A DNA stretch of 32,831 nt from an uncultured Elusimicrobia bacterium (GCA_937898825.1 CALEIX010000178.1:1-32831), one strand, 5' to 3'; positions 413 through 29,758 are shown, counted from the first letter of the stretch. Notes: generated by a model not told the origin, from the sequence alone. Program-made: numbers and translations.

Positions 413-1645
413 TTATTTAATTTCCGCTATATATTTTTTAAGAGCAGAACAGAAAATGTCAATATCCTCTTCTTTGCTGTATATGTAAAAGGAAAGCCGG
501 CCAATAGATTTGATTCCGGAATTCAGTGCGGTTAAATCCGCGCAATGTCTTCCGGTTCTTATTGCAATAAAATGCTCGTTTGAATAATTATTCAAATAGA
601 TATTAAAGTCCTCCAGAGAAAAATTTTTTTCTACCGGAGTAAAGGAAAGTATAGAACCTTTCTGCAGTTGTTCCAGATCTCCGATTATCCTGATTTCCCC
701 AAAGAGAGAAATTTTTTTATAAGCATACTTTATTACTCTGGCTATTTGTTCCCTTATTTTCTTAAAGCCAATTTTTTCTAGAACACGGAAGGATTCCGCC
801 AGTGCCACGGCCCCGGCGTAATTCTGTATGCCCGCTTCAAATGAAACGTTTCCGTCTATATATTCACAATAATATTTCCGGCCTCTTTTATAAATCTCCT
901 TCACTATGCCGCCTCCGACCTTAGCCCTGGCAAGCTCGGATAAAAGATCGCTCCTCACGTACAAAACTCCGGTTCCGTACGGCGCCCCCATCTTATGCCC
1001 GGAAAAAGCGGCAAAGTCGGTATTTATTCCTCTCATATCTTCCCTGTGACTGGGTATATACTGCGCCTCGTCCACAAAGACCTTAGCGCCGAAATCATGT
1101 GCCACATCTATGAATTTTTCCACATCAATGCTCGAACCGAAGACATTGCTCGCCCTTGTAATACACACAAGCGCGACTTTTTTGTTTATCATTTTCTTAA
1201 AAATTTCAAAATTCGGCAGACACCCTTTAAGCGGAATTATTCTCAATTTAACCCTTCCCGCGTTCTCAAGCTTAAGGAACGGAAGAAAAACACTGTTGTG
1301 TTCAAGGGGGGACAACAATACCTCTTTTCTTTCCCCGGAAAAAACGAATGCAGAGGCAAGTATATTAACTGCCTCGGTAGTTCCGCTTGTGAATATTATT
1401 TCTTCCGGGAAAGCGCCTATGCTTTGCGCTACGCAATTTCTGGCCTCTTCGTATTTTTGCCCGGCTTCCTGAGACAGGATATGAACGGATCTTTTGCCCG
1501 CGCAACCGCCGAAGTTCGCCAAAAACTTTCGTTCAGCACTGATAGAGGACGCCATCTTAAGAGCAGAGCAGGCGCTGTCAATGTAAATCATTTTTTTCCC
1601 GCGAAACCTTCTATTTAATGCAGGAAACTCTTTTTCTATATTCAT
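413..1645 (-). CDS. Class V aminotransferase, cysteine desulfurase (SufS/NifS-type)
   Basis: A 410-residue PLP enzyme of fold type I. Visible motifs are SGTTEAVN near residue 87, His116 in LEHN, Asp192/Gln195 in the VDEAQ strand, the Schiff-base lysine K218 in SGHKMGAPYGTG, and a candidate catalytic Cys368 in RTGRHCAD, the usual place for the persulfide Cys of group II desulfurases. It would take sulfur from cysteine and leave alanine. The ATG directly follows the TGA of the preceding radical SAM gene with no gap, and it is the last gene of the operon. Inference: it serves Fe-S assembly for the many radical SAM enzymes, or is itself a tailoring enzyme. No SufE/SufU/IscU scaffold gene is present in the window. 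A selenocysteine lyase-like or other class V activity cannot be excluded. Confidence 0.85.
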   Translation of the reverse strand: MNIEKEFPALNRRFRGKKMIYIDSACSALKMASSISAERKFLANFGGCAGKRSVHILSQEAGQKYEEARNCVAQSIGAFPEEIIFTSGTTEAVNILASAFVFSGERKEVLLSPLEHNSVFLPFLKLENAGRVKLRIIPLKGCLPNFEIFKKMINKKVALVCITRASNVFGSSIDVEKFIDVAHDFGAKVFVDEAQYIPSHREDMRGINTDFAAFSGHKMGAPYGTGVLYVRSDLLSELARAKVGGGIVKEIYKRGRKYYCEYIDGNVSFEAGIQNYAGAVALAESFRVLEKIGFKKIREQIARVIKYAYKKISLFGEIRIIGDLEQLQKGSILSFTPVEKNFSLEDFNIYLNNYSNEHFIAIRTGRHCADLTALNSGIKSIGRLSFYIYSKEEDIDIFCSALKKYIAEIK

Positions 1646-2488
1646 TCAAAAAACCTTGTGAATTTTAAGATAATCTTTTCTGGGTCCATAACAGATATTA
1701 GCATATTTGCATTTAAAGCATTTTTTAACGTACGTTTTTTCTCTCTCCTGAGGTCCGGGAATCTTTAATTTCATTTTTGCAATATCCACATGATAACCAT
1801 AGTACCTGCCGAGCATACACGGTGGAATATGGTCTATTTCAAACTCAACTCCGCTTCTTTCAAGAATATAACAGGCTTTTGAAAGAAAACCGGAAACCGA
1901 AGAATATTTTGGAACTATTTTTCTGGTTCGGGCTTTTCCCATAGCCTTAACGAAGCTAAACTGAACCCAGCCAACCCGAGGGCCCATCTTTTCCTTCACA
2001 AACCTGGCAAAACTCGGCAAATACCTGTAATTTAATTCGCATATTATATGGGTTATCCTAACTGCAACTTCCAATTTAAGCAAAAGATTTACGCCGCTAA
2101 TTTTCCTGTAAAAAAAGTCCCTCTGCGTTATTTTCCTGTCAAGTTTCGGATTTGCGGCTGAAATATTCACATTGAAATAGCCACCACTTGCTTTGACGAT
2201 TCTTGCAATTTTTTTCAATGCCCCGGCATCGTATCCTTCAATTAAAGAAGCGTTTGTCTGAATCTCCACCTTTTTCTTATTTTTAAGACAGCACAGCAGT
2301 ATTTCAAGCAGAACCGCCGGTTTCGCCAAAAACGGTTCTCCTCCGGAAATCTGAACAAGTTTTTCCTTTGACCTCTTAATATCGTCAAAAATAGACGTGA
2401 CTTCGATTTTTCCCCTCTGCCGCTCCGGTTCAAAAGAACAAAAAACGCAGCTTTGATTGCACCTATTTTCAATTTTTATCAAACTCAT
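1646..2488 (-). CDS. Radical SAM protein, HxsC-like with four-Cys C-terminus
   Basis: This 280-residue protein has the radical SAM cluster motif C10-x3-C14-x2-C17 close to the N-terminus, then SGGEP (the SAM-binding GGEP motif) and a TNASL strand. The C-terminus carries PPC followed by C-x2-C-x5-C-x-G (KKCFKCKYANICYG), a twitch-like auxiliary Fe-S cluster pattern shared with at least five other proteins of this operon. That pattern fits HxsC-type maturases of the His-Xaa-Ser system; assignment to the family is by pattern, not by search. It is a short version, with the start only nine residues before the first Cys. It directly abuts the desulfurase downstream (TGA then ATG). A small open frame lies upstream at 2469-2579. 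Confidence 0.85.
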   Translation of the reverse strand: MSLIKIENRCNQSCVFCSFEPERQRGKIEVTSIFDDIKRSKEKLVQISGGEPFLAKPAVLLEILLCCLKNKKKVEIQTNASLIEGYDAGALKKIARIVKASGGYFNVNISAANPKLDRKITQRDFFYRKISGVNLLLKLEVAVRITHIICELNYRYLPSFARFVKEKMGPRVGWVQFSFVKAMGKARTRKIVPKYSSVSGFLSKACYILERSGVEFEIDHIPPCMLGRYYGYHVDIAKMKLKIPGPQEREKTYVKKCFKCKYANICYGPRKDYLKIHKVF

Positions 2489-2579
2489 TTCTCAATTTTG
2501 ACTCCATGAGTTTTTTGCTCAAAGGTATCCTCAACGCCCAACCTGATTTAAAAACGCTCACCTTTTTTTCATACACCAT
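2469..2579 (-). CDS. Possible 36-residue ORF with AbrB/VapB-like motif
   Basis: An ATG at 2579 opens 36 codons ending at a TGA inside the next gene (20-nt overlap with the radical SAM start at 2488). The peptide contains VFKSGWALRIP, which resembles the VFKSGNSxALRIP core of AbrB/MazE/VapB-type antitoxin N-termini but lacks the usual Asn-Ser. Its ribosome site is weak. It is in the same frame as the orphan frame at 2598-2834, separated from it by TGA TAA. It could be an antitoxin fragment, an unrecognised small peptide, or chance. Confidence 0.3.
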   Translation of the reverse strand: MVYEKKVSVFKSGWALRIPLSKKLMESKLRNEFDKN

Positions 2580-2597
2580 TTGCGCTTGCCTGTCTTA

Positions 2598-2834: not shown

Positions 2835-4013
2835 TCATTTGATCCTCCAGAAATACTTGCCTTTTTTAAAAAATTTCTCGACCCTGTTCTTTCTGATGAG
2901 ACTTTCTCCCGCGTTTATTACCGCGTTCCCATCCGAACAGTCACGACAAAGCGTAATTCCTCCGGCGATTTTCAGAACCTCTTTTGTGGAAGCGGGAGAT
3001 TGGATTCTAAGCACCTCAAGAAGGCACCTTTCATTATCGGAAAGGAATACTTCCTTTATTGGTTTTCCGGGAGTCTTGAATGTCTCTTTAACGGGATTAA
3101 ACCCTTCCTCACCGAATACTTGCAGATAATTAAAATCCACTCCCCCGCACCTGGCGAAATAAGCGCATTCAAAACATGCCTTGACTCTTTTTTTGTTTTC
3201 ATTCGAGCTCAAGTCAAGATCAGTTTTTATTCCCTCCGGATCTGTCACAAGGGTATTAAACCGGTCAAGACCTATGGAAAGCGATTCCCTTCCTCTGATA
3301 AAACAGGGAGGCACATTCAAAAAAAGAATCTCATTTGAAAGCCCTACCCTCTCCATTAAGTTTATTGAGTCTCTAAAGTATTTCTGGACGTCCGGAAGAG
3401 AGATCTTAAGTTTATCACTGTTTTTTTTCATATTTCCAATATAAAGAGGATATATAATCACAAAATTGCTTATGCCGTTTTTAAGAAAGAAATGGATTAT
3501 TTCCGGCAGGCGATTGTAATTATAGCGATTTACCAGTATATTTGTTCCTAACCTGATTTTCCATATTTTAAGATTTTCAAGTCCCCGCATCGCTTGTTTC
3601 CAGGCTCCTTTGTAAACGAGTAATTTATCGTGCACCTCGGCATTATCGCTTAAAAAACTAAACTTGCAAAAAGTCAGACCCGCCCTAACCAGCCTTTCGC
3701 AGAATTTCCCGCTTGAAAGCAAAATTCCATTTGTCTGGATTCTAATAAAACCAAAACCCACTTTTTTTGCCAGGGAAATTATTTTAACTATATCGGGTCT
3801 CAAAAGCGGCTCGCCTCCAGTAAAGCCAATTCTTCTATATCCCGCGGCGTAAGCGCGGTATATGTTTTCTGCTATTGACTCAAAAGAGGCGTTCAACCTC
3901 TTGTCAAATGAACCCTGAGAGCAAAATAAACATCTTGCATTGCAATTGTAATTAAGGATTATCTCATAGCACTTGAGGTTTTCCTTTCTTTCACCAGGTG
4001 TTTTCTTTTTCAT
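2835..4013 (-). CDS. Radical SAM protein, HxsC-like, with winged-helix-like C-terminal extension
   Basis: The chosen ATG at 4013 overlaps the upstream TGA as ATGA; an upstream start at 4076 would overlap the previous gene by 67 nt. This gives 392 residues. The radical SAM motif is C24-x3-C28-x2-C31, followed by TGGEPLL. The four-Cys C-terminal pattern (VPPC, then C-x2-C-x5-C-G in KACFECAYFARCGG) marks the HxsC-like group. Unlike its relatives it continues for about 80 residues after that motif, with a helix-rich segment (SDNERCLLEVLRIQSP... LIRKNRVEKFFKKGKYFWRIK) that looks like a winged-helix or RRE-like domain, possibly for peptide binding. The frame stays open past the stop (see 2598-2834), so this protein may be truncated. 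Confidence 0.82.
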   Translation of the reverse strand: MKKKTPGERKENLKCYEIILNYNCNARCLFCSQGSFDKRLNASFESIAENIYRAYAAGYRRIGFTGGEPLLRPDIVKIISLAKKVGFGFIRIQTNGILLSSGKFCERLVRAGLTFCKFSFLSDNAEVHDKLLVYKGAWKQAMRGLENLKIWKIRLGTNILVNRYNYNRLPEIIHFFLKNGISNFVIIYPLYIGNMKKNSDKLKISLPDVQKYFRDSINLMERVGLSNEILFLNVPPCFIRGRESLSIGLDRFNTLVTDPEGIKTDLDLSSNENKKRVKACFECAYFARCGGVDFNYLQVFGEEGFNPVKETFKTPGKPIKEVFLSDNERCLLEVLRIQSPASTKEVLKIAGGITLCRDCSDGNAVINAGESLIRKNRVEKFFKKGKYFWRIK

Positions 4014-5050
4014 TGGCAGGTTAACCCCCGGTTTTTTCGCAATTCGATATTGTGAACTTCGCAAAACGCCCTGCATGTTATTGCGCTTTTTATAAGAGAC
4101 ATGTATTCTTTTCTCATAACTTTGGCCAGTTTTTTGTGGGACGCAATGGCGCTGCGCAACCTTTCACCGCTTAACTTCATACAATAATGGAAATAAGCGA
4201 AGGCCCCGGCGGAACACAACAAGCTTCTCACCCCGGCTCCATACCTTCGAGCAACAGAAAAAAAAGAGTGCCTTTTTTCCGCGTCAATCCGTAAACTAAG
4301 AAATTTTTTCATACCCGTTTTATCTGCGGAAACGGCTTTATCACAAGGAATAAAATGCCCGCTGGGAAGCAGAATAATATTCGGGCAATAACGAGGATTA
4401 TAATCCTTGTCGAGGCATTCAAAAATCAGCTCGTATACATTTCCCATCTCATATACTTTGCCCCCGCCTCTGATAATTTCAAAATACCACTTTCTGATTT
4501 TCATCATTTCCCGCTGAATAATCCTGATGTCGGCATCGGGCCATATTTCTGTTATGTCAGGAGTCCACATAATATGCCTGAAGCCGAAATTGTATATCTC
4601 TTTCACGAGTCTTGAAACCTCGCCTATTTTCTCCCTGGTTGCCACAAACGAAGCTGTGGCTCCACGCCTGGCAGATTCCCTGAAAATTTTTCTTATCTCC
4701 TTCACTTCAAAAAAATTAAATTGATTGAGACTTAAAACAATCTTGATTCTTTTATCCTGTGCAAAAGCGGCAAAATCCTTCGTCAATTTCATTCCGTTGG
4801 TAAAGATATGAATCGGACAACTGCTTTTGCGTCGTACATGTTGCACAATAGAGACAAGAAGTTTTTTATGAAGTAGCGGCTCGCCGCCCAGGAAAGTTAT
4901 TTTGGCATCTCTGCCGTAAAGTTCCAAAAATCTATTAACCGCATAGAGCGCACTTTTCCTGCTCAGAACAACAGAGGTCCCGGAATTTCTAATATAACAG
5001 TACGGACATCTTAAATTGCAGATATAACTCATATAAATGACAAGATTCAT
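4010..5050 (-). CDS. Radical SAM protein with SPASM-like C-terminus
   Basis: A 346-residue enzyme with C11-x3-C15-x2-C18 (ICNLRCPYCY), LGGEPLL and an IFTNG strand. The C-terminal half has the SPASM-type pattern C-P-x-I-x-L-L-P-S-G-x-F-I-P-C-D, then several more Cys (SLLCSAG, HYCMKL, TCRAFC). It therefore belongs to a different subgroup from the four-Cys HxsC-like enzymes around it and resembles peptide-modifying SPASM proteins such as sactipeptide or quinohemoprotein maturases. It overlaps both neighbours by 4 nt (ATGA), so translation is coupled. The substrate is unknown; by context it is the His-Xaa-Ser peptide or a partner. Confidence 0.82.
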   Translation of the reverse strand: MNLVIYMSYICNLRCPYCYIRNSGTSVVLSRKSALYAVNRFLELYGRDAKITFLGGEPLLHKKLLVSIVQHVRRKSSCPIHIFTNGMKLTKDFAAFAQDKRIKIVLSLNQFNFFEVKEIRKIFRESARRGATASFVATREKIGEVSRLVKEIYNFGFRHIMWTPDITEIWPDADIRIIQREMMKIRKWYFEIIRGGGKVYEMGNVYELIFECLDKDYNPRYCPNIILLPSGHFIPCDKAVSADKTGMKKFLSLRIDAEKRHSFFSVARRYGAGVRSLLCSAGAFAYFHYCMKLSGERLRSAIASHKKLAKVMRKEYMSLIKSAITCRAFCEVHNIELRKNRGLTCQ

Positions 5051-5973
5051 TTTATTGCCTTAAGTTCTCCGTCCCCGTAATGTTTAAGATACTCCGTCCA
5101 TATTCCCTCGCAGATATTGAAAAGGCGACAGCCGAAACATCTAGGCGTTTTCCTTCTTGAAACCATCTGCCTTGAAATCACCGCATCTGTATTTTTGAAA
5201 TCAGGCGCCCAGTGTTGCGTAAAAAACAGCACTCTTTCATTTATATCGCTTATATGGCTTAAATGGCGGTGGAAATAACACAGCGGCACATATCTCACCT
5301 TCCAACGAGGAAAACCGTTTCTATCTCCCACATTAAGGACCTTTCTCATATATAGCGCACATTCGGAAATTTTCGGCACCAGATTTTCAAAACAATCATG
5401 CGCTCCGCCATACGTCGGGTCAACAAAGATAAATTCCACATTTTTAATTCCATACTTTATGTAAAGACGACCTATTTCAGGAAGGTAGCGCATATTGCTT
5501 TTTACAACAGTAGTGTTTCCGTTTATATTCTTAAATCCTAACTTTCTCAAATTCTCTATGCCTTTGACCAATTCGGAGAAACTGCCCGGAACCCGCGTAA
5601 GACGATCGTGAACTTCGCAGTTGTGCCCGTGGATGGAAAAAATGATTCCGTCTATGCCGGCTTCCACTATCTGGCGGGCAAATCTTATATCTGAAAAAAT
5701 CCTGCCGTTAGTCGAGGTTAAAACTTCATTTATACCCAACTTTTTGGCCGTTCTTACCACGCAGGCAAAATCCCTTCTTATCGTAGACTCCCCCCCTATG
5801 ATTTCCACTATATCGGCTTTTTCTTTCTTCGCCTTGTAAAGTTCCCTCACTATCTCGGAAGTGGTTTTTTCCGGAAAATCCCTTTTCCTGGAATCAATGC
5901 AAAAAACGCACTTATTGTTGCATTTATATCCGGTGAATATCACTATCTTTTTCAATCTCGTTGGAGCATTCAT
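5047..5973 (-). CDS. Radical SAM protein, HxsC-like with four-Cys C-terminus
   Basis: This 308-residue enzyme has C18-x3-C22-x2-C25 (YKCNNKCVFC) and then IGGES instead of the usual GGEP, a Pro-to-Ser change also seen in the HxsB at 8034-9497. SIHGHNCEVHDRLT is conserved with the enzymes at 7130, 11768 and 15189. The C-terminus has VPLC plus C-x2-C-x5-C-x-G (PRCFGCRLFNICEG). It is coupled by ATGA overlaps to the protease-like gene upstream (5970) and the SPASM enzyme downstream. Proposed role: a maturase of the His-Xaa-Ser system. Assignment rests on motif pattern and context. Confidence 0.82.
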   Translation of the reverse strand: MNAPTRLKKIVIFTGYKCNNKCVFCIDSRKRDFPEKTTSEIVRELYKAKKEKADIVEIIGGESTIRRDFACVVRTAKKLGINEVLTSTNGRIFSDIRFARQIVEAGIDGIIFSIHGHNCEVHDRLTRVPGSFSELVKGIENLRKLGFKNINGNTTVVKSNMRYLPEIGRLYIKYGIKNVEFIFVDPTYGGAHDCFENLVPKISECALYMRKVLNVGDRNGFPRWKVRYVPLCYFHRHLSHISDINERVLFFTQHWAPDFKNTDAVISRQMVSRRKTPRCFGCRLFNICEGIWTEYLKHYGDGELKAIK

Positions 5974-7133
5974 AAAATTCCAGTAAGACGAAGAATATCT
6001 TTATTAAAAAGCAACATCAGCAAAACGCCGGCGAATATCCACAACGCAAAGGGTCTGCCCTTTATCACTTCTATCTTTGGGTCCTTGACATTAAGCCGTG
6101 AAAGCCAGTCTTTGAGCAAATCAATATGCTCCTTGCAAAAGCCATCCCTGAAAACATCGTCAAACGCGCCTTGAAAAACCGGGTTCTGCTTCAATAAAAG
6201 AAGTGTGGAAGTTGAAGGTATCATACCAGGCCCTAGTTCGTCCTTTCCCACGAAATAGGCGTCTTTTTTCTCCATTATAAACTCTATCATAAACCTTCCG
6301 ACAAAAAGAATGACGCTAAACTTAAAGACGTTTACGACAGCACCTGTTAAATAATTTAAAAGACGGTATGGAAAGAAGAAGTATCCACATATGAAATAGA
6401 TTAAATAAACAATACCGGAAAAGTAAAGCCATTTACGGCTTCTGAAAATTCCACCTATTCTGTCCCACAGAAAGAACAAGAAAAAAAATATTAAATCCGT
6501 CCTCTTCATAACATGTTCCAGGAAGCCCTTAAATTCCATCACGAAAATCTGATGAAATAGAAACAACATGGAAAGATTGACCGCGCAGGCCAAAAACGCA
6601 AATCTTTTTTTTCCGCCGGCCCTGGCAAGGGCAGTGAACCTCTCCTTTATTCCATTCCATTCCTCGCTAAAAAAATCCGACGGTCCAACGCGATTTATTC
6701 CTTCAGAAATATAATTGATAACGGCATAAACAGACGCCACCACAAATATATTTATCAAAACGCTTAAAAACAGGTAGCCGGGAAAAGTTTTAATAAAAGG
6801 ATTTATCAGCGGGAGTGATAACGAGCACAATATGAAAAATTTAGCATCCCCTGCCGGCCAAATCTCTCCGTACCACAAAACAACAGCGGCAATCACCGTC
6901 AGGGCAAAATGCTGAAGGAAAAGAACATAGAAAATCGGGTTCAGAAAATCCGAAACTCTGCCGTTTAAGCCGAGATAGGTGTTGACGCCTGACAGAAGCA
7001 TGGCGGCTATAAAAATCCTGGCTCCAAGCACCGTTCTTTTGTTAAATATTTTCCTGAATTCAAAATCCTCCTTGACCACGGCTACACACCATCCCAGAAA
7101 AAAAATCAAATAAGTCAGGGATATATATTTCAC
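5970..7133 (-). CDS. A24 prepilin-peptidase-like membrane aspartyl protease
   Basis: A 387-residue multi-pass membrane protein with about eight or nine hydrophobic segments. Two features fit the type IV prepilin peptidase (A24, TadV/CpaA) domain in the first 130 residues: Asp23 in KEDFEFRKIFN after the first membrane segment (D-x5-I-x-N, as in the family), and Asp96 in WPAGDAKFF (the GDxK motif). The remaining 250 residues do not match the standard peptidase: more membrane helices, then a soluble segment (about 285-360) and a last helix. It overlaps the radical SAM genes on both sides by 4 nt, so it belongs to this operon and not to a pilus cluster; no pilus genes are in the window. Inference: it cleaves the leader or membrane anchor of HxsA or another hxs product. 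Confidence 0.72.
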   Translation of the reverse strand: MKYISLTYLIFFLGWCVAVVKEDFEFRKIFNKRTVLGARIFIAAMLLSGVNTYLGLNGRVSDFLNPIFYVLFLQHFALTVIAAVVLWYGEIWPAGDAKFFILCSLSLPLINPFIKTFPGYLFLSVLINIFVVASVYAVINYISEGINRVGPSDFFSEEWNGIKERFTALARAGGKKRFAFLACAVNLSMLFLFHQIFVMEFKGFLEHVMKRTDLIFFFLFFLWDRIGGIFRSRKWLYFSGIVYLIYFICGYFFFPYRLLNYLTGAVVNVFKFSVILFVGRFMIEFIMEKKDAYFVGKDELGPGMIPSTSTLLLLKQNPVFQGAFDDVFRDGFCKEHIDLLKDWLSRLNVKDPKIEVIKGRPFALWIFAGVLLMLLFNKDILRLTGIL

Positions 7134-8020: not shown

Positions 8021-8033
8021 AGTCAGGCCAAAA

Positions 8034-9497
8034 TCAAAATTTCTCTCTGCTCTTTCTTCTTTCAGCGATACCTTCGCCCCCTGTTGACTCAAACCATGAT
8101 TCAAAAATTTTTCTATTTTTGCGGTCCTGGAGTCTTTCCGTCAAAACCTTAAAAATCCCCTTTTGCACACCACACCAATAGGAATTCCTCAAATTCCCCC
8201 ACGGAGTTTTTTGCTCCTCGTAATTATGAACCGGGCACACCCCGCAAAAAGGCTTGAAAGCACACCTGAAGCATTCGGGCTGATTCTCCAGACAGGAGGT
8301 TATTACGCACAGCTTTGAGGGGGCGCTTGCGACTACATCCGCATAAGAATGGTCCCTCACATTCCCCAACCTAAAGGAAAAATCCCTGCGGGCGCCCACC
8401 ATTCTTCCCTCATCGCAGGTGTAAACATCCCCATTCCAATTATAGGCAATCTGTCCTATAGCAGCTCCGCAGGGAGAACGCAAATCAAGATAATTCGGAT
8501 CTCTTCCAAAAAGCATTTTTTGAAGAATAATCGCCGCTGTTCGCTCGATAAATTTTTCGCCCCTTGAATTTATTTTCAGGCAATAATCCAACGCCCTTTT
8601 ATAAAAGAAAACAAAATCCTCTGCTCTATATCCAATTCTGGAGAAAACCTGCTTAGCGTATCCCACAGGGGAAAGGGGTCTTATAAAAATACCCCCCAAA
8701 CCCAGAGCACGATATTCATCTACTATCTCCCGGGGATAATCCAGCGAATATTTGGTCGTAGTCATCAAGGCAGAAGGCAGAGAGTCTTTTCTTCCCCTGT
8801 TCTTTTCGGAATAATCTGCGAAACGCTTCAGCCAGTTAACCGTAATATCGTAGGAGGAGCCACCGAAGTAAATTCTATTTCTATTGTGAACTTCTCTCGG
8901 TCCGTCAAGGGAGGTGCATACCGAAATCCGATTTTTATTGAGAAATTCAAACTTTCTTTCATCTAACAAGGTAAAATTGGTAACGACCGAAATTTCAAGA
9001 TTCTTGCCAAGACTTCGGTTCTTTCTCAAGGCGTAGTCAACCGTTTTTTTAAGCGTCCGCCAGTTTATCAGGGATTCTCCTCCCTGAAATTCTATGGTGA
9101 TATTTTTGTTTGGGGAGGACAAAGCCATGTCAACACATTTTCTGGCAGTTTCTTCGTTCATATCTGTATTTTTGAAATCCGCTCCCAGAGCACGGCAGTA
9201 AACGCAACGGTGATTGCATTTAAGGGTGAGAACAAAAATGTGAAGAGACGGCCCGTTTTCTCCAGGAGGATTTAAATCTTTAACCGCTGAAACTGCTTTT
9301 CCAAAATCGAGATGGGTTGAGAAAAAACCTTTCTTTTTCAGCTTGCGGGCTAAAGACGGTTTTTTATCAAATTTCCCGTTTTTGACCAAATCAAATTCCG
9401 AGGGTTCCAAAATCATCCAATTTCCAAAATCGTTGGAAATGAAAACCCCTTTTTCGGTCTTTTCAAAATTAAAATTTAAAAGTTTGTCTCTTTGCAT
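8034..9497 (-). CDS. hxsB: Radical SAM/SPASM maturase HxsB (copy 1)
   Basis: A 487-residue protein of HxsB type. The N-terminal 80 residues (FNFEKTEKGVFISNDFGNWM) form the family's leading domain, probably a peptide-binding RRE-like region. Next come GPSLHIFVLTLKCNHRCVYC with C94-x3-C98-x2-C101, and FQGGES (Ser in place of Pro). The SPASM region is intact: SPCGAA, TCDEGR, CFRCAFKPFCGVCPVHNYE and WGN...WCG. It resembles the protein at 19657-21099 in most blocks, so the two are recent paralogues. The start overlaps the preceding gene by 29 nt; hxsC follows. HxsB is an established partner of HxsC and HxsA; its exact chemistry here is unknown. Confidence 0.88.
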   Translation of the reverse strand: MQRDKLLNFNFEKTEKGVFISNDFGNWMILEPSEFDLVKNGKFDKKPSLARKLKKKGFFSTHLDFGKAVSAVKDLNPPGENGPSLHIFVLTLKCNHRCVYCRALGADFKNTDMNEETARKCVDMALSSPNKNITIEFQGGESLINWRTLKKTVDYALRKNRSLGKNLEISVVTNFTLLDERKFEFLNKNRISVCTSLDGPREVHNRNRIYFGGSSYDITVNWLKRFADYSEKNRGRKDSLPSALMTTTKYSLDYPREIVDEYRALGLGGIFIRPLSPVGYAKQVFSRIGYRAEDFVFFYKRALDYCLKINSRGEKFIERTAAIILQKMLFGRDPNYLDLRSPCGAAIGQIAYNWNGDVYTCDEGRMVGARRDFSFRLGNVRDHSYADVVASAPSKLCVITSCLENQPECFRCAFKPFCGVCPVHNYEEQKTPWGNLRNSYWCGVQKGIFKVLTERLQDRKNRKIFESWFESTGGEGIAERRKSREKF

Positions 9498-11766: not shown

Positions 11767-11767
11767 A

Positions 11768-12667: not shown

Positions 12668-12684
12668 TGTCGAATTATACCGAA

Positions 12685-14097: not shown

Positions 14098-15185
14098 GTG
14101 TAACCCTCCGCAAAAAGTTTGGCAAGATACTTCAGGTAACTCCTGAACCTCTCATGGGTATGCGATAGATGAAGGATTCGGGCAACGGCATTTTTGGCAA
14201 TCTCAGTTCTCCTGCTGTAGGCAATAGAACCTTCTTTTAGAGCCGGTAAAACATAATATTCTGCGGCACACTTTTGACAGCGCCTTGAATCCCGGCGCGG
14301 AAGACAGGCGTTAAATCTGTCTATTATCCCGCTTTCAGCAGAACCAATTGAAACTTTTCTTCTCTCCTCCATATTCGCCACAAAAGCATAGGGATAAAAT
14401 GCGAAAGTTCCGTCCGGATAGAGTTCAAGGTCCCTCAAAAAAGGACAAAAGGCGTTCGGATATTCTCTCTCTCTGAAAAATTCAAGGAAGGGTTCAAAGA
14501 GAATAAACTCGTTATTCTCGACCATCTGAAAGACGTCTCTCACAATCTCTTCCAGGTTTGCGGAAAAATTCTCGTAATCCTCCCTCCGCCACCTGAAGCC
14601 ATGAACGCATTCCAGGCCGATATTCCTGAAACCAATTCTCAAAAGTTCCCTGAAGTCCTCGTGCATACGGGTGGCCTGTTGTGGATGAACGCAGAAAATC
14701 ACATGGGCCCTTTCGCCCAATTCAGAGAGAATAAGCGAAATTTTAGGCATGAGAAGATTGTATGAACCCTGCCCGCCGGGAAGCTTTCGGGTAAAATCCT
14801 GAGTAGCAGAACTTCCCGAAAAACTTACGGAAAACCTTATATCATTTGCAGCTATATATTTCAGATGTCTTTTCTCGACCAGAAGTCCGTTTGAAGCAAT
14901 AGAAACTGAAAGTTGCTTTTTTCTTTTCGCGGCGATTTTTCTTGCCTCCTCTATTATTTTCGCGGATAAATCAAATGCAAGCATGGGTTCGCCGCCATAT
15001 ATTTCAAGGATTTTCTTTTCGCCGGGAGAGCCTATAAAAAAATCAAGTGACTTTTTTGCCTTCTCAAAAGGGATTCTCATATTCTCGCTCTTGTCGATGA
15101 AGCAATGAACGCATCTCAGGCAACAATCCGACGTAACAGCTATCTTGAATTTGTTTATCTCCTTGTTGAAAGTTGTTCTTTTCAT
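14094..15185 (-). CDS. Radical SAM protein, SPASM-like with partly missing cysteines
   Basis: A 363-residue protein with C21-x3-C25-x2-C28 (SDCCLRCVHC), YGGEPML and IASNGLLVEKRH. The C-terminal part has FCPFLRDLELYPDGTFAFYPY, which is SPASM-like, but Tyr stands where the family usually has Cys after YP. It then has ACLPRRDSRRCQKCAAEYY. The auxiliary cluster is therefore probably incomplete or unusual. The middle region has ECVHGFRWRREDY. It is an outlier relative to the HxsC-like enzymes around it. It is followed by the HxsB-like gene (ATGA overlap) and lies 3 nt after the first gene of the operon. Confidence 0.78.
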   Translation of the reverse strand: MKRTTFNKEINKFKIAVTSDCCLRCVHCFIDKSENMRIPFEKAKKSLDFFIGSPGEKKILEIYGGEPMLAFDLSAKIIEEARKIAAKRKKQLSVSIASNGLLVEKRHLKYIAANDIRFSVSFSGSSATQDFTRKLPGGQGSYNLLMPKISLILSELGERAHVIFCVHPQQATRMHEDFRELLRIGFRNIGLECVHGFRWRREDYENFSANLEEIVRDVFQMVENNEFILFEPFLEFFREREYPNAFCPFLRDLELYPDGTFAFYPYAFVANMEERRKVSIGSAESGIIDRFNACLPRRDSRRCQKCAAEYYVLPALKEGSIAYSRRTEIAKNAVARILHLSHTHERFRSYLKYLAKLFAEGYT

Positions 15186-15188
15186 AAT

Positions 15189-16341: not shown

Positions 16342-16349
16342 ATAACGTC

Positions 16350-16585: not shown

Positions 16586-17941
16586 ATGCCAAACCCAAAA
16601 AACTTTCACATAATACTTGAAAAATTCAGGGAACTGGATTACACTGGTTACAGCGAACAGTACCCGCCTTTCGCTTCATGGAACAAATTTAATTCGTCAC
16701 CAAAAGCGGTAAAGGAGGCCTGGAAGGAAAGTCTGGAAGGAGTGGGCGAAGTTGGTCTTTTCATAAACGTTCCTTTCTGCCGCAGCAAATGTTTTTTTTG
16801 TTTTTTGCCGGTGGTTTGTGTCGGTCGAAACGAAGAGAATGCCCGGGAATTTTTCAAAATATACTTCAAATCCTTAAAAAAGGAAGCCTCCTTCTTTGCA
16901 GCCGCATTTAAAAAAAACTCCTTCTCCACGGTATACATAGGCGGAGGAAGCCCATCAATGATGTCTCCTGAAGAAGTGCACGTTTTTTTCAAAATACTGA
17001 GGGAAAACTTTAATATTGAAAAAAAAGCGCAAATTATAGCCGAACTGCATCCGCAGGATGTAAATCGCGAAAGAATTGAAGCCTTTCTCGCCAATGGTTT
17101 AAACCGCTCATGCCTTGGAGTTCAAAGCATGGACGAAAGAGTTTTAACCGAAGTAAAAAGAAAACAAAACATCCATCAGGTGAAACGGGCATATTCGATT
17201 CTGAAAAAACACGGAGTGCCAGTTAACGTAGACCTTATCGTCGGACTCCCGCGTCAGAGCGAGAAAAGTTTTTTTTCCGATTTCTCGGAAATACTGCCGC
17301 TCATGCCCGATCAAATTCATCTGAACGCATTTATATGCACACCATACACGTTATACAGCATGCTTGGCGGAAAACCCCCGGATTATGCAAAAATAGAAAA
17401 ACTGCGTTTAAAGGCTTTTCAAAAATTGTTTGAAATTGGATATAAAAAGATAGATTCCGACTCGGCAGGTATTACGCCGCATTCCCGGAATTTTCAGACC
17501 ACTGATTTGTGGAAGAAAAAATCCCTGCTTGGCATGGGACCCGGGGCAATCTCTCACGCCTACGGAAAAATGCGATACATAAATTATATGGTCTGGAAAG
17601 ACTATTTCTCTCGCTTGAAGAAAGGCAATATTCCGATTGAAAGATGGGTAAAAATGTCACTGAGGGATGAAATGATTTATTATGTTGTGGAAAGACTGAG
17701 CAACGAAAAAAACATAAATCTTGAGGAATTCAGGAAATTTTTCGGCAGAGACTTTTTGAAAACTTTTTTTGCTGAATGGCACACCCTCAAAAATTCCGGA
17801 GCCACCCTGAAAAACGGAAGAATATACGTTCCCCCCAAAGCATGGAGCGACATCAGACGGGCTTTTTATTCATACCGCACGATCATCCGGGGATTAAAAA
17901 ACGCCAAACTAAAGTCCTCATTTCTAAAAAAGTTCAAATAA
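16586..17941 (+). CDS. HemN/HemW-like radical SAM protein
   Basis: A 451-residue enzyme and the only plus-strand gene of the island. Motifs are YPPFASW near residue 26, PFCRSKCFFC with C65-x3-C69-x2-C72, IGGGSPSM (Ser instead of the usual Thr in GGGTP), CLGVQSMDERV, VDLIVGLPRQ and LGMGPGAISHA. Coproporphyrinogen dehydrogenase HemN has a fourth Cys right after the third (CxxxCxxCxC); here that position is Leu (CFFCFL), so classical heme synthesis is unlikely. It is clearly paralogous to residues 1-430 of the fusion at 9469-11766. Its stop is 2 bp from the end of hxsA on the other strand, so transcripts would overlap. Proposed role: a tailoring enzyme of the same system, possibly a class C-like methyltransferase or a HemW-like protein. 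Confidence 0.82.
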   Translation: MPNPKNFHIILEKFRELDYTGYSEQYPPFASWNKFNSSPKAVKEAWKESLEGVGEVGLFINVPFCRSKCFFCFLPVVCVGRNEENAREFFKIYFKSLKKEASFFAAAFKKNSFSTVYIGGGSPSMMSPEEVHVFFKILRENFNIEKKAQIIAELHPQDVNRERIEAFLANGLNRSCLGVQSMDERVLTEVKRKQNIHQVKRAYSILKKHGVPVNVDLIVGLPRQSEKSFFSDFSEILPLMPDQIHLNAFICTPYTLYSMLGGKPPDYAKIEKLRLKAFQKLFEIGYKKIDSDSAGITPHSRNFQTTDLWKKKSLLGMGPGAISHAYGKMRYINYMVWKDYFSRLKKGNIPIERWVKMSLRDEMIYYVVERLSNEKNINLEEFRKFFGRDFLKTFFAEWHTLKNSGATLKNGRIYVPPKAWSDIRRAFYSYRTIIRGLKNAKLKSSFLKKFK

Positions 17942-17943
17942 GC

Positions 17944-18228
17944 TCAACACCATCCGCCTCTCGCATGCGATCCGTGGGACCCATGGGAGCCGTGAGAGCC
18001 GTGAGAACCGTGACTCTGATGACTGACATGGTACCTTGAAGTAAAATAATTGGTGTGAATCTTGGCGTATGCCAGACCCGAATCCAGTATGGCTCCTCCA
18101 AGTATTCCCAACGCAAGACCTGTCTTGACTATGTCCGAGTCAAGCATCTTTCCCTCTTCGCTGCTTAAAAACAACTTCACATTCTTCAATGCCCGGTTTT
18201 TTCTTTTTTTATCATTTTTCTTCTTCAT
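17944..18228 (-). CDS. hxsA: His-Xaa-Ser repeat peptide, HxsA-type precursor
   Basis: A 94-residue protein in three parts: a very basic N-terminus (residues 1-18, mostly Lys/Arg), a hydrophobic segment (about 33-54, GLALGILGGAILDSGLAYA), and a C-terminal core with seven His-Xaa-Ser triplets at residues 67-87 (HVS, HQS, then HGS five times), His88 and a tail ending GGWC. The triplets are the mark of HxsA, the substrate of HxsB/HxsC. The five HGS units use five different nine-base spellings, which points to selection on the peptide rather than a recent DNA expansion. The ATG at 18228 has AAGGAG seven nt upstream and overlaps the preceding gene by 17 nt. The basic leader followed by a hydrophobic helix gives a pilin-like membrane topology. 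The terminal Cys could form a disulfide, thioether or lipid link. Confidence 0.88.
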   Translation of the reverse strand: MKKKNDKKRKNRALKNVKLFLSSEEGKMLDSDIVKTGLALGILGGAILDSGLAYAKIHTNYFTSRYHVSHQSHGSHGSHGSHGSHGSHARGGWC

Positions 18229-19309
18229 ATTCCGACTCCTTCAGAAATTTCCTGACATCCTTATTGATCTTTTCCATTAATTCCTGTTGTTCTTTCTTGA
18301 ACTTCTCCTCTTCCATTTTCTTTCTCTTCTGTTCAGCTAAATACTCCTTTCTTTCCTCTTCGCTCATTCTTGTAATATCATTTTCCGCCTTGTCCACGTT
18401 GGTGAGAAACCGGCAATAATCTTTGGAAATCCTGGCAGCTATCTGAAAACATATATCTTGTGATTTTTTCAGATAAGCCCTGCATATATCCCTTTTGCTT
18501 CCCGAAAAACGCAAGCAGTTTTGTTTTTTAAATGCATGGTAAAAGTTGTAGAGCGCCACGCAGGTGTCCCTGTTGTTGCAGTCGGATAATTTAGCCGGCA
18601 AATTAGAAAGGCACTCTTTTTTCATTGAAGGAGACAGATACTTATGTTCCACCCCCGCCGAACATATCCCCTCCAGTCCCCTGGCGGCTTCTTCGCAAAA
18701 TACATCTTCGGGAACGTGTGGCGCTCCTTCCGGCCACAACGTCATAAACCGGCGGCAAATTTTCTCATCCTTTCTTCTTCCGGCCACGTATCCGGCAAAA
18801 TCTATCACCTTACAAAATCTTTCACAATCTTCTATCAGCACATCCGCCTTTTCGGCATTTCCCTGGATTTTTGGCAAAGATTTACAATATATATTCTCAC
18901 CCGAAACAAGAGAGCGGCAAAGCATATAATCGGTCAAAAGTGTGTAAATCTGAAAGCTTTCTTTGTCAGTGAACGTTCTCCTGGAGGGTTTATCCACGCC
19001 CCACATGCTCCCGCGCTCTGCCATAATATTTTCAATACTTCCCTGTTCGCAGGCAAGTTTATAGTTTCCATCGGCGGCAAGAACAGATATATTGCCCGAA
19101 ATATCGCCTATATCTATATCCACATCCACATCCTTTGCCAAAGACATTTCTTCAGTAGCTCCCTTCGGCAAGGGAACTCCAATACTCCCCTTTTTTTGCT
19201 GAGATATCTTACTTACCGGGATACTCTCGGTACTCTTTTGTTCTATATATCGCAAAACCAGAATGAGGATAAATATACCGACGATGATTATTATTCCCTT
19301 TTTCTTCAC
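18212..19309 (-). CDS. Membrane-anchored Cys-rich protein of unknown function, GTG start
   Basis: A GTG start at 19309 with AAGGAGGT five nt upstream gives 365 residues. The N-terminus is a short basic leader (KKKG) and one membrane helix (about 5-19), so the rest should lie outside the cytoplasmic membrane. The body has 15 Cys, mostly within recurring short helical motifs (EDCERFC, KICRRF, SDCNNRDTC, DICRAY, DICFQI, DYCRFL), suggesting several disulfides and an internal repeat fold. An acidic stretch DVDVDIDIGDISG sits near residue 60. The last 60 residues are highly charged and probably a coiled coil (EERKEYLAEQKRKK). I do not recognise the family. It lies directly upstream of hxsA in the same operon and overlaps it, so a role as anchor or assembly partner of the mature peptide is plausible. 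Confidence 0.7.
   Translation of the reverse strand: MKKKGIIIIVGIFILILVLRYIEQKSTESIPVSKISQQKKGSIGVPLPKGATEEMSLAKDVDVDIDIGDISGNISVLAADGNYKLACEQGSIENIMAERGSMWGVDKPSRRTFTDKESFQIYTLLTDYMLCRSLVSGENIYCKSLPKIQGNAEKADVLIEDCERFCKVIDFAGYVAGRRKDEKICRRFMTLWPEGAPHVPEDVFCEEAARGLEGICSAGVEHKYLSPSMKKECLSNLPAKLSDCNNRDTCVALYNFYHAFKKQNCLRFSGSKRDICRAYLKKSQDICFQIAARISKDYCRFLTNVDKAENDITRMSEEERKEYLAEQKRKKMEEEKFKKEQQELMEKINKDVRKFLKESEYEEEK
18236..18241 (-). promoter_or_regulatory. Ribosome binding site of hxsA
   Basis: AAGGAG on the minus strand, 7 nt before the ATG at 18228 and inside the end of the upstream gene. It fixes the hxsA start and indicates strong independent translation of the precursor. Confidence 0.8.
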
Positions 19310-19314
19310 TTAAC

Positions 19315-19322
19315 ACCTCCTT
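19315..19322 (-). promoter_or_regulatory. Ribosome binding site selecting a GTG start
   Basis: A full AAGGAGGT on the minus strand, 5 nt before GTG (19309). It supports the GTG as the true start of the Cys-rich protein. Confidence 0.8.
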
Positions 19323-19351
19323 AACCAGATGTTAAAAAAATTACCCATAAG

Positions 19352-19373
19352 GTGAAAAAATATCCGTTTTCAC
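19352..19373 (-). terminator. Weak hairpin in the only sizeable gap of the hxs operon
   Basis: GTGAAAA (minus strand, 19373-19367) and TTTTCAC (19358-19352) can pair over an 8-nt loop. It begins at the stop of the small hxsD-like gene, and a run of seven T follows about 12 nt after the hairpin. It may be a partial terminator or attenuator that alters the ratio of maturase genes to hxsA. The stem is A/T-rich, so this is tentative. Confidence 0.25.
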
Positions 19374-19675
19374 ACTAACCTTTCTTTCACATTTTCGCCC
19401 ATCGCTGAAAGCAATGCTTTTGTTACTATGATTTGAGCAACCTTTCCGTTTTTGCCGTGCAAATCAAGCCTGCACTGCTGATTCAGCGCTTCGTTTAAAA
19501 ATTCGCCCATTTTACTTTCATTTTCGCCGGAAACCCTGATTCTCAAAAACCTGCCGCTTCTCGAAAGGGTTATTTTCATTTCATCTGCGTAGATATTTGC
19601 CGCAAGCTTTACAGCCTGGCGCGAATAGAGTCTTTCGTCAACCAAAATTTCTCTTTTTATTTCTCCGGTATCCAT
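19370..19675 (-). CDS. hxsD: HxsD-like small protein (short copy)
   Basis: The 101 residues fit the HxsD pattern: an N-terminal strand followed by YSRQAVKLAANIYADEMKITLS, a strand RIRVSG, and FLNEALNQQCRLDL, the equivalent of the HxsD motif recorded as LLNDYxLRE. A helix IIVTKALLSAM follows. It starts 19 nt inside the upstream hxsB gene. HxsD is a conserved non-enzymatic member of the His-Xaa-Ser system; a peptide-binding or scaffold role is inferred. This copy is more diverged than the one at 21071-21520 (for example ANIYADEMK where that copy has AYSLTDEAY). Confidence 0.7.
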   Translation of the reverse strand: MDTGEIKREILVDERLYSRQAVKLAANIYADEMKITLSRSGRFLRIRVSGENESKMGEFLNEALNQQCRLDLHGKNGKVAQIIVTKALLSAMGENVKERLV

Positions 19676-21099
19676 TTTTTCAAAATCCTCTCCTTTTTTT
19701 TGTCCTGCAGAAACTTAAAAATCAAATCAAATATTCCCATAAAAATAGCACATCTTTCATTGGACAGCATATTCCCCCACACACTTTTCTGCGCCTCATG
19801 GTTATATACGGGACAAACGCCGCAATAGGGCTTATAAGCGCATCTGAAACATACCGGCTGCTGCTCCAGATTTGAAGAAAGAGCGCACAGCCGACAAGCA
19901 CCGCTTTTCACTATACTCTCATATTCGTCATGCACAGTGCCAATTCTGAAAACATCGTCCCCCTGCTGGGCTATCATCCTGCCTTCGTCGCAGGTGTATA
20001 AGCCGCCGTCCCAATTATAGGCGATCTGACCTACAGCCGCTCCGCAAGGATATCTCAAATCCAGATAACCCGGGTCCCTCCTGTTAAGAATCTTTTCAAG
20101 AAGCAAGGAAGCATTTTTTTCCCTTATCCTTACCCCTTTTTCGTTCAATTTAAGTATATACTCCAGAACCTTTCCGTAAAAAGAAAGGAATTCCCGGGAA
20201 TTGTATCCTATCTTATCCCAGACTCTTGCGGCATAACCTATAGGCGACATCGGTCTTACAAAAATATCTTCCAACCCCAATTTTACGTATTCGTCCACAG
20301 TCTCTTCAGGATATCTCAAGACAAATCTGGTTACGGTAAGAAGGGCGCTCGGTTTAAATATCCTGCTTCCGCCTTTTTGAGTATCATGCCTCCTCATAAA
20401 ATATTTAATCCATTTTACCGCAAGGTCATACGAACTTCCTTTTGAATACGGCCGGTTCCTGTCATGAACTTTGCGCGGCCCATCTAAAGATGTGCATAAG
20501 GAAACCTCATTGGCAAGCAAAAATTCGGCTTTTTCCGCGTCCATAAGGGAAAAATTCGTCACCAGGGCAAGACTTAATTCTTTGTTTTCAGACACCTCTT
20601 TTTTTCTCGCATACTCTATGGTTTTCTTCAGGGTTTTCCAGTTTAAAAGCGGCTCCCCGCCCTGGAATTCGATGGTTATGGAGGGAGCGGGACTTTGAAA
20701 AGCAATATCAACCGCCCTTCTGGCTGTTTCAAAGCTCATATCCGTCTTATGAACCCTTTCCGGAAGCGCTCCGGATTGACAGTAAAGACAGTTATAGTTG
20801 CATCTCAGGGTTATTACGAAAATATGAAGCCCCGGTCCAAAATGCAAAAAGGCATTTTTCAGGCGCCACGTTTCGCTCAGGGAATCAAAATCCATCCAGT
20901 TCCTGACAAAACCTTTTTTGCTTAAATCCTGGTGAAGAGCAGGTCGTAGGTTAGAAGTACCAGACATAAGCCTTGTAAACTCTTTCTCACTCAAAAAGCG
21001 AAAATAACCAAAATCATTGGTAATGAGGCGTTTCCCCGAAACCTTACGCCAATTCAAAAGATAGGCTCTGCTATTTTTTCCCTTCGCTCCTGGCGCCAT
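19657..21099 (-). CDS. hxsB: Radical SAM/SPASM maturase HxsB (copy 2, core operon)
   Basis: A 480-residue HxsB-type protein: leader domain LLNWRKVSGKRLITNDFGYFRFLSEKEF, then LHIFVITLRC with C100-x3-C104-x2-C107 (RCNYNCLYC), FQGGEPLL, LVTNFSLMD and TSLDGPRKVHDRNR. A full SPASM set follows: YPCGAA, YTCDEGR, CRLCALSS, CFRCAYKPYCGVCPVYNHE and NERC. It sits between two HxsD genes in the same operon as the His-Xaa-Ser peptide, so it is the best candidate for the primary maturase of HxsA. The start overlaps the upstream hxsD by 29 nt with GAGAG before the ATG. No HxsC gene is in this operon; the HxsC-like enzymes are all in the large operon to the left. Confidence 0.9.
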   Translation of the reverse strand: MAPGAKGKNSRAYLLNWRKVSGKRLITNDFGYFRFLSEKEFTRLMSGTSNLRPALHQDLSKKGFVRNWMDFDSLSETWRLKNAFLHFGPGLHIFVITLRCNYNCLYCQSGALPERVHKTDMSFETARRAVDIAFQSPAPSITIEFQGGEPLLNWKTLKKTIEYARKKEVSENKELSLALVTNFSLMDAEKAEFLLANEVSLCTSLDGPRKVHDRNRPYSKGSSYDLAVKWIKYFMRRHDTQKGGSRIFKPSALLTVTRFVLRYPEETVDEYVKLGLEDIFVRPMSPIGYAARVWDKIGYNSREFLSFYGKVLEYILKLNEKGVRIREKNASLLLEKILNRRDPGYLDLRYPCGAAVGQIAYNWDGGLYTCDEGRMIAQQGDDVFRIGTVHDEYESIVKSGACRLCALSSNLEQQPVCFRCAYKPYCGVCPVYNHEAQKSVWGNMLSNERCAIFMGIFDLIFKFLQDKKKERILKKWIPEK

Positions 21100-21520
21100 A
21101 TCTCTCTTCCCATGTCATCGTTACTTGCTTTCCGCCTTCCTTCTTGTTTTCCCGCTCTATTTCTTCCTCAACCTGTTTTATCAACTCGTCCAGTTCCTTT
21201 TCCTGCTCAGGAGTGAGGCCGTCTTCGGTTTTTGGAACCTTCCCGTCGTCGGTTAAAGCTTTTATTACCAAAAACTCTCTCAAGGCGGCGTTTTCCCTAA
21301 ATAATCTTTCACGTAGTTTTTCATCCTCGAGCTCGCGCAAAAATCTTTTTCGCAGGGTGTTTAAATTGGCATTAGATTTGGGGGTTATTTTCACTTCAAC
21401 GGCGCCCCTTCCGGCAAATCTTAAAAAAACATAAGCCTCATCTGTGAGGGAATAAGCCGAATATCTTATGGTTTCAAGGGAGTATTTATTGAGACCCACC
21501 TTAACGGAAATTTCCTTCAC
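21071..21520 (-). CDS. hxsD: HxsD protein (long copy), GTG start
   Basis: The start is GTG at 21520, preceded by AAGGAGG 4 nt away. The 149 residues begin with a typical HxsD domain: VGLNKYSLETIRYSAYSLTDEAYVFL, a strand VEVKITP, then FLRELEDEKLRERL (the LLNDYxLRE-like motif) and FLVIKALTD. After about residue 98 it adds an acidic tail of about 50 residues, predicted helical (TPEQEKELDELIKQVEEEIE), absent from the short copy. It lies 12 nt after the first gene of the operon and overlaps hxsB. The tail may be a docking element for HxsB. Confidence 0.82.
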   Translation of the reverse strand: MKEISVKVGLNKYSLETIRYSAYSLTDEAYVFLRFAGRGAVEVKITPKSNANLNTLRKRFLRELEDEKLRERLFRENAALREFLVIKALTDDGKVPKTEDGLTPEQEKELDELIKQVEEEIERENKKEGGKQVTMTWEERYGARSEGKK

Positions 21521-21532
21521 GCACCCTCCTTG

Positions 21533-22330
21533 TTATTGTATCCTGCAGCAAAGTAACCAGCCCGACCTATCGCACTGGGTGGAAGTATAAACCCAGTTCC
21601 AACGACTCTGCAGTCTTCCACCCAAAAAAAGCATGCCTCTCACGCACGAACCCGCGCCATAAGTCGCAAAAACCCTTTCATTCCAGCCACATCTCTCATT
21701 CGTGTTTATGCCATACCATACATACCTGCACATGCCTCTGATTCTGCCGGTAACCCTTAAATCTCCATTAACCCGCGCATCTCCCTGAACATCCAGGGGA
21801 TAACTGGGATTTCTGCCTATACCAACCCGCGTGCCGTCAAATCTAAGAGAATCGTTTCCGGTCAGGATTATCCTGGCGTCATAATCGCACCAGCGATCGT
21901 TTGCGAAATCAATATAGGGAGTGCCCTGTCCGCCCAGCTCTATCGAAGAACCCTGGTCGCTACTTAAAATGCCTTTATGCGGATACTTCGAACCCCAGTA
22001 TATCTGTTGCCTGGACCTGACATTTCCAACTACATCCAGTCTCTGGGTAGGCGAAGTAGTTCTGATGCCCACATTTCCGTTAACCGCCAGTTTGGCGCTG
22101 CCCGGGGAGGTATATCCACCTACAGCGACTCCGCTTCCATCCCTTGCCAGAACTGTCAGATTGGTTGTAAGAAGCCTGGCATATCCCCCATAAGGAGAGG
22201 GATAATAGGTGGTAAGAGTTAATTGTTCAGAACCCAAAATTTTCGGATGAAAGCACAAAAAAGCAAGGCAGATAATTCCAACCATCGCTTTCTGTCCAAA
22301 TCTAATACTTATTATTATTTCCCGCTTCAT
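21533..22330 (-). CDS. Secreted fibre-like protein, first gene of the hxs operon
   Basis: The 265 residues begin with a signal peptide (basic start, hydrophobic 15-27, probable cleavage near 33-34 before SEQLTL). The mature part opens with LTLTTYYPSPYGGYARL and contains two copies of a tail-fibre-like motif: VGIRTTSPTQRLDVVGNVR and VGIGRNPSYPLDVQGDAR. These repeats usually form beta-rich trimeric shafts in fibre or adhesin proteins. The last 60 residues are rich in Cys, Trp and Gly (MCRYVWYG, ERCGWN, SCVRGM, STQCDRSG, LLCC), suggesting a disulfide-bonded head. The gene follows a consensus promoter and GGGAGGTG. It is not an obvious hxs component, so its place at the head of the operon suggests a product displayed on the surface. 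Confidence 0.75.
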   Translation of the reverse strand: MKREIIISIRFGQKAMVGIICLAFLCFHPKILGSEQLTLTTYYPSPYGGYARLLTTNLTVLARDGSGVAVGGYTSPGSAKLAVNGNVGIRTTSPTQRLDVVGNVRSRQQIYWGSKYPHKGILSSDQGSSIELGGQGTPYIDFANDRWCDYDARIILTGNDSLRFDGTRVGIGRNPSYPLDVQGDARVNGDLRVTGRIRGMCRYVWYGINTNERCGWNERVFATYGAGSCVRGMLFLGGRLQSRWNWVYTSTQCDRSGWLLCCRIQ

Positions 22331-27817: not shown

Positions 27818-27837
27818 TTTTTTGTACAATTACTAAT

Positions 27838-29755: not shown

Positions 29756-29758
29756 AGA

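Follow-up and report, generated by a model that had tools for sequence, protein, structure and literature searches.

A stretch of 32,831 nucleotides from an uncultured Elusimicrobia bacterium (hereafter the window; contig C178 of a 2.27-Mb draft assembly comprising 368 contigs, with a completeness of 87.6%) carries a cluster of 13 radical S-adenosylmethionine (rSAM) proteins, enzymes of a class that performs demanding radical chemistry, grouped around a single precursor gene, hxsA, of the His-Xaa-Ser system, which was named over a decade ago. Here, we show that this cluster is a real and broadly conserved variant of the known system, and we report, as a new result, a modular partition of its enzymes by the tail of the peptide. 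In the window's family, a tail-linked set (S2, S1, HxsB2, HxsB3, and C6) is found only in genomes whose HxsA has a GGWC-type or an unread tail, whereas a core composed of the TTYYP protein, HxsD1, HxsB1, HxsD2, a Cys-rich protein, C1 to C5, the protease PPep, and a cysteine desulfurase is found with either HxsA tail type. Literature searches returned no description of this cluster.

The partition was followed most closely through S2 (14094..15185; this and all window genes below are on the minus strand unless marked plus), a SPASM-like rSAM enzyme related to PapB and CteB, with counts taking in only the genomes with a readable HxsA tail. S2 is present in 25/25 RGGWC-tail genomes of the window's family versus 0/13 with another observed tail, and in other families it lies nearby in 10/10 GGWC-containing genomes versus 0/17 without GGWC; overall, this amounts to 35/35 GGWC-tail genomes versus 0/30 with an observed non-GGWC HxsA. 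It is found in none of the 218 HxsB-negative genomes. Given this restriction to GGWC-type genomes, the partner precursor of S2 carries a cysteine. In two genomes (G219 and G289), S2 was found before the GGWC tail was read, and the S2 relatives of G202 and of one G200 locus are divergent (about 170 to 210 bits). Counted by locus, S2 lies within 20 kb of 26 of the 29 GGWC loci and of none of the 25 others, the three exceptions carrying it elsewhere in the genome. An apparent exception among genomes, G293 (GGWC HxsA, no S2 match), was discarded after a nucleotide-level check located S2 in frame-shifted pieces of the assembly, and RGGWC pattern matches away from the hxs loci in G153, G213, G282, and G210 were attributed to chance. 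S1, HxsB2, HxsB3, and C6 show the same tail pattern; S2 and S1 were searched genome-wide, and the correlation for the other three was read from fetched loci. The S1 alignment holds one loosely placed row (L118), while the S1 search rests on strong matches (E < 1e-57) at cluster positions; another family alignment, which has a wrong-frame row for L039, served display alone.

The link between S2 and the tail is not mere adjacency, since three genomes (G115, G087, and G231) keep S2 at a distance of over 20 kb or on a separate contig. In HxsB trees, at least five changes of tail can be counted, each matched by a change in S2, and four such pairs fall on well-supported branches. The association has no exception, although the independent events behind it are few. 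Together with the tight spacing of the genes in most loci, these few switches would also fit the exchange of S2, HxsB3, C6, S1, and HxsB2 with the RGGWC hxsA allele as a linked cassette, involving no pairing of enzyme and substrate. We consider such a haplotype distinctly improbable: S2 is retained although unlinked in the three genomes just named, and a second family, whose tail (CRGGWC[NC]PRC) and gene order differ, obeys the same rule.

How unusual the cluster is can be seen from the Radical_SAM model (PF04055), which matches 14 domains in the window, each scoring over the curated cut-off, and 42 in the whole draft genome; a uniform spread of these 42 domains would give about 0.4 per 22 kb. 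The 14 domains belong to 13 proteins encoded between 1646 and 21099: 11 in a minus-strand operon (413-16256) where most neighboring genes abut or overlap, HxsB1 in a second minus-strand operon (17944-22330), and the last one, which is HemN-like, on the plus strand. An earlier note on this DNA had described this layout, with 14 CxxxCxxC centers, and Pfam matches together with the reading of open reading frames (ORFs) and motifs bear it out. The HxsB and HxsD models match at 19657-21099 and 21071-21520, where the note had placed these genes, and its inventory held in number and almost wholly in naming. Three HxsB proteins exceed the TIGR03978 cut-off of 370 bits, namely, HxsB1 (19657..21099; 488 bits), HxsB2 (8034..9497; 473 bits), and HxsB3 (12685..14097; 372 bits); HxsD1 (21071..21520) scores 50.0 bits, exactly at the TIGR03976 cut-off of 50; and two HemN-like and two SPASM-like enzymes are as described, the latter being S2 and S1 (4010..5050). 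The second HxsD (HxsD2-like; 19370..19675; 36 bits) and all HxsC-type proteins fall below cut-off. The best HxsC score in the window is the 171 bits of C4 (7130..8104; TIGR03977, cut-off 267.9), and since this model, although first or second for the six free-standing C proteins, stays below its cut-off, we call these six and the C-terminal domain of the protein at 9469..11934 HxsC-like relatives rather than HxsC. The others are C1 (1646..2488) and C2 (2835..4076), both core by their presence with either tail, C3 (5047..5973) and C5 (11768..12724), for which HxsC4 is the nearest model, and C6 (15189..16256), tail linked by the loci read. The 346-base gap between C1 and C2 (2489-2834) contains no convincing ORF and is absent in the relative G083.

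Haft and Basu reportedly defined the His-Xaa-Ser system as hxsABCD (TIGR03976-TIGR03979). The present cluster shares with it a His-Xaa-Ser-repeat precursor, HxsB proteins over cut-off, an HxsD at cut-off, and HxsC-like enzymes. It differs by having 13 rSAM proteins instead of two and by HxsC-like proteins and an HxsA that score below the curated cut-offs, and it adds SPASM enzymes, HemN-like enzymes, an A24-type protease, a desulfurase, the TTYYP and Cys-rich proteins, and the tail-specific enzyme set. HxsA3, HxsA4, and HxsC4 (NF038309, NF038313, and NF038332) are the nearest NCBIfam names for the precursor, C3, and C5, with scores far below cut-offs.

The cluster is neither an artefact nor confined to the window's genome. 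HxsB occurs in 77/295 sampled Elusimicrobiota genomes and in almost every member of the window's family, in one to four copies. In the loci of about 40 relatives, a recurrent order runs TTYYP-HxsD1-HxsB1-HxsD2-CysRich-HxsA, then S2, C6, HxsB3, and sometimes HemN, and continues C5-B2-C4-PPep-C3-S1-C2-C1-desulfurase. This order is kept in many members of the window's family, and the linkage of the large operon to hxs genes, on which the earlier note's reading depended, recurs in many relatives. Some relatives split core and tail-linked genes over separate loci, and genomes with a GSY tail mostly carry a different HxsB (HxsB4), X379, and Y321 instead of the tail-linked set. At L080, the Tyr-tail cassette beside HxsB4 comprises a protein of about 380 residues with no rSAM motif (L080:16340-17479, plus strand) and another rSAM protein (L080:17472-18437, plus strand).

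The paralogues of the window are about 25 to 50% identical to each other, and each of C1 to C6, S1, and S2 matches its own best orthologues with far higher scores than it does the other seven. HxsB2 and HxsB3 are single clades, each with a support of 100. The number of HxsC-like domains (seven) and the loss of four SPASM-region cysteines from HxsB3 could be taken to mean that many paralogues are superfluous or degenerate remnants of tandem duplication. This seems to us very improbable, because each paralogue has a long-standing orthologue line, with the CxxxCxxC motif kept in nearly all members, and because the loss in HxsB3 is the same throughout: cysteines aligned with C352, C370, C405, and C429 of HxsB1 are missing in 26/26 orthologues, all of which keep the three CxxxCxxC cysteines and those aligned with C417, C420, C426, and C450. 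HxsB1, HxsB2, and HxsB4 mostly or always retain the four lost positions, C405 being less constant in HxsB1, and in the window both HxsB1 and HxsB2 have a complete set of auxiliary cysteines. By comparison with anaerobic sulfatase maturase, the loss presumably removes one auxiliary iron-sulfur (Fe-S) cluster, and its uniformity favors a separate role, that is, specialization, over random decay. Another rSAM array was seen in G087 (G087:C36:375-20985), where at least nine S1-related matches lie within about 20 kb on a contig other than that of its hxs locus.

The precursor HxsA (17944..18228) is a 94-residue protein recognized from its translation and an alignment of 23 homologues; the HxsA3 and HxsA4 models match it weakly (26 to 27 bits; cut-offs of 65 and 55). 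Its sequence shows a basic N terminus, an FLSSEEGK motif, a hydrophobic stretch, an AxA site, an HxN motif, His-Xaa-Ser repeats of the His-Gly-Ser type, and a C-terminal ARGGWC, so that, even with hidden Markov model scores below cut-off, a precursor with C-terminal His-Xaa-Ser repeats is present in the window and in its homologues. The homologues share an FLxSEEGK motif followed by the hydrophobic stretch and, mostly 27 residues on, the AxA-like site. This signal-peptidase-like site is found in 55/56 HxsA homologues, directly ahead of the conserved HxN motif. No transporter of the type used to export ribosomally synthesized and post-translationally modified peptides (RiPPs) was recognized among the window ORFs examined; with the AxA-like site, this makes Sec export followed by signal peptidase I cleavage the simplest reading, and HxsA is likely exported by Sec. 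The RGGWC-stop tail (17944..17961), which covaries with S2, S1, HxsB2, HxsB3, and C6, was followed by a pattern search in 78 genomes. Besides RGGWC, the tail classes are CRGGWC followed by [NC]PRC and motif-free tails ending in GSY, GQW, GSW, GAW, or FSF. The CRGGWC[NC]PRC tail belongs to the second family (L114, L116, L118, and L119), next to two HxsB and S2, and several genomes of that family hold an additional, separate HxsA system with a different tail. At L115:15100-15522 (minus strand), an HxsA variant with His-Xaa-Asn repeats (HGNHGNHGNHSNHGSGGWC) represents a natural swap of the repeat residue, with divergent S2 relatives nearby.

The earlier note had proposed that the enzymes serve a multistep pathway making a heavily modified surface peptide or that they also act on unlinked precursors elsewhere in the genome. 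The first proposal fits the evidence, given the separate orthologues of each paralogue, the tracking of the tail, and the AxA site. The second is not supported in this genome: HxsA is the only precursor found, no other in-frame His-Xaa-Ser repeat was found in the 87.6% complete assembly, from which a second precursor could be missing since it is a draft, and a search of the genome with the HxsA leader returned HxsA alone. The gaps of the window contain no convincing short ORF for a small hidden precursor. Two His-Xaa-Ser pattern matches were rejected, one (C178:21679) being antisense within the TTYYP gene and the other (C190:16518) lying where the ORFs have no in-frame His-Xaa-Ser repeat.

We favor as probable a modular, single-precursor RiPP pathway in which the core works on the His-Xaa-Ser repeats and the set of S1, S2, HxsB2, HxsB3, and C6 on the RGGWC tail before export. 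In such a pathway, HxsB1 with HxsD1 and HxsD2 would recognize the FLxSEEGK leader of HxsA, and HxsB1 and the HxsC-like C1 to C5 would then act on the repeats, possibly joining His to the Ser two residues on. The tail-linked enzymes, whose membership comes from co-occurrence, would next act on RGGWC, where S2 would most likely bond the sulfur of the tail cysteine to a nearby carbon, and HemN-like enzymes, where present, would probably add methyl groups. Judging from the AxA site, Sec export, a signal peptidase I cut, and display in the envelope alongside the TTYYP protein and the Cys-rich protein may follow, and the A24-type protease would cut one of HxsA, the TTYYP protein, or the Cys-rich protein. 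A more ambitious version, in which more than 10 rSAM enzymes act in sequence on an exported peptide of about 40 residues, appears rather doubtful; it would have HxsB and HxsC enzymes form repeated His-Ser cross-links in the HxS array, S2, S1, HxsB2, C6, and an HxsB3 with one auxiliary cluster close a thioether- or Trp-linked RGGWC ring, and a prepilin-peptidase-type cut complete the product.

The chemistry of the tail can be approached through the relatives of S2. Its nearest solved structure is 5wgg, which we take to be CteB (130 bits over 315 positions), and the alignment extends across both the rSAM and the SPASM region. In the thioethers formed by CteB and PapB, Cys is linked to Thr and to Asp or Glu, respectively (PMC11002830). 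The substrates of these ranthipeptide maturases and of S2 share a cysteine; however, the HxsA tail cysteine has no adjacent Asp, Glu, or Thr acceptor, and S2 sits in a multienzyme Hxs cluster. Since S2 accompanies the GGWC tail of HxsA and no other, our leading proposal is a thioether at the tail cysteine, although we regard it as slightly more doubtful than probable. For the repeats, the triceptide enzymes XncB, OscB, MscB, and HaaB link an aromatic residue i to the β-carbon of residue i+2, and MscB does so between Phe and a Ser (PMC11002830). These three-residue cyclophanes share their i to i+2 spacing with His-Xaa-Ser, which makes His-Ser cross-links by the core plausible; HxsB is a separate family and the likeness is one of motif, so that we speculate on this step and hold it to be quite doubtful.

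Several points weigh against the pathway that we favor. A strict sign test on the tail and S2 changes gives p = 0.125; independent changes are so few (four to five) that it cannot reach 0.05. Co-occurrence is no proof that the enzymes touch the tail, and S2 has PapB as its best model at 129 bits, below the cut-off of 340. Neither a His-Xaa-Ser product nor an HxsB product was found in the literature searched. The HxsD1 model, a β-α-β-β-α fold (mean predicted confidence, pLDDT, 84), has no significant match in the PDB and none to a known recognition domain; in particular, no PqqD-like winged-helix element appears among the matches listed, and the fold differs. The PPep model likewise has no significant PDB match, and its A24 assignment is weak in the window's genome. 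Finally, several Tyr-tail genomes hold a TTYYP-D1-B1-D2-C4-PPep-C3-C2-C1-desulfurase block that is separated from hxsA, the latter having an HxsB4 to itself, so that the core may act on something other than HxsA.

This last arrangement raises the possibility of two products, with HxsB1, C1 to C5, PPep, and the desulfurase maturing the TTYYP or the Cys-rich protein, and HxsA being matured only by HxsB2, HxsB3, S1, S2, and C6 (or by HxsB4, X379, and Y321 in Tyr-tail genomes). The TTYYP protein, as a constant hxsD neighbor with an almost invariant Tyr-rich motif, would suit such a role. It is, however, about 265 residues long, unlike known RiPP precursors, and has no SEEG leader motif, and GGWC loci, G045, and several second-family loci have TTYYP, HxsD1, HxsB1, and HxsA in a single run of genes. 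We thus regard two products as unlikely and retain the single-precursor pathway.

Among the proteins of the core, the TTYYP protein (21533..22330) is encoded by the first gene of the hxs operon. It is secreted, ends in CC, and bears the almost invariant motif TTYYPxPYGxY, whose exact form is present once in the window's genome; no Pfam or NCBIfam model matches the protein, and its gene adjoins hxsD in most loci of the window's family, making it the constant opening gene of Elusimicrobiota hxs operons. The Cys-rich protein (18212..19309), encoded directly upstream of hxsA, has an N-terminal membrane anchor, six invariant cysteines in an alignment with 12 relatives, and no notable Pfam or NCBIfam match. 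The desulfurase (413..1645) noticed in the earlier note is indeed a SufS relative (299 bits; cut-off 475). Since it is present also in loci whose HxsA tail has no Cys, it most likely feeds sulfur to the many Fe-S clusters of these enzymes.

PPep (5970..7133; 387 residues), which the earlier note had called a protease, is a multipass membrane protein that appears to be a divergent prepilin peptidase of type A24. Like A24 peptidases, it has both catalytic aspartate motifs, D23 and WPAGD96 (the second in a GD motif), which are invariant in 17 sequences; it differs by a long extra C-terminal half and by its setting in an rSAM cluster. Peptidase_A24 (PF01478, cut-off 26.5) matches two PPep orthologues over cut-off and the window's PPep over its full length at only 17.9 bits. 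The structure model is mostly helical (pLDDT 84), and a sequence profile search of the PDB with PPep gave no match. PPep occurs in 61/77 HxsB-positive genomes versus 3/218 HxsB-negative ones. A separate, ordinary A24 peptidase is present in 10 of the 13 genomes searched, so PPep is not just the pilin peptidase of these genomes.

The two HemN-like genes are optional and, in the window's family, occur only in GGWC-type or tail-unread genomes. The first (16586..17941, plus strand) has orthologues in GGWC-type loci alone; among solved structures, it is closest to HemN (1olt) and to NocN (9p2u), a class C methyltransferase, and it scores below every HemN, HemW, and HutW cut-off. The second (9469..11934) encodes a HemN-like domain fused to an HxsC-like domain, with two CxxxCxxC centers, and has fused orthologues in six other loci; its true start is probably further in, since the gene as read overlaps C5 by 167 bases. 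Next to the cluster (22442-32734) lie genes for PhoH and a member of the myo-inositol-1-phosphate synthase family, together with genes whose sequences read as BamA-, Skp-, LpxD-, LpxC-, FabZ-, and LpxA-like, a chromosomal outer-membrane neighborhood.

If more than 10 rSAM enzymes do act on one peptide, this would be, to our knowledge, the most rSAM-rich RiPP pathway, and its product would be a new surface biopolymer. Beside the striking number of enzymes, the most useful result is their natural partition by tail. Knowing which enzyme set goes with which tail type narrows the choice of enzymes to match with each end of the peptide, and the RGGWC, CRGGWC[NC]PRC, GSY, and GQW tails offer natural controls in the wild. 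In this phylum, most of which is uncultured, so large an rSAM pathway is maintained for what looks like one exported peptide, implying an important role in the envelope.

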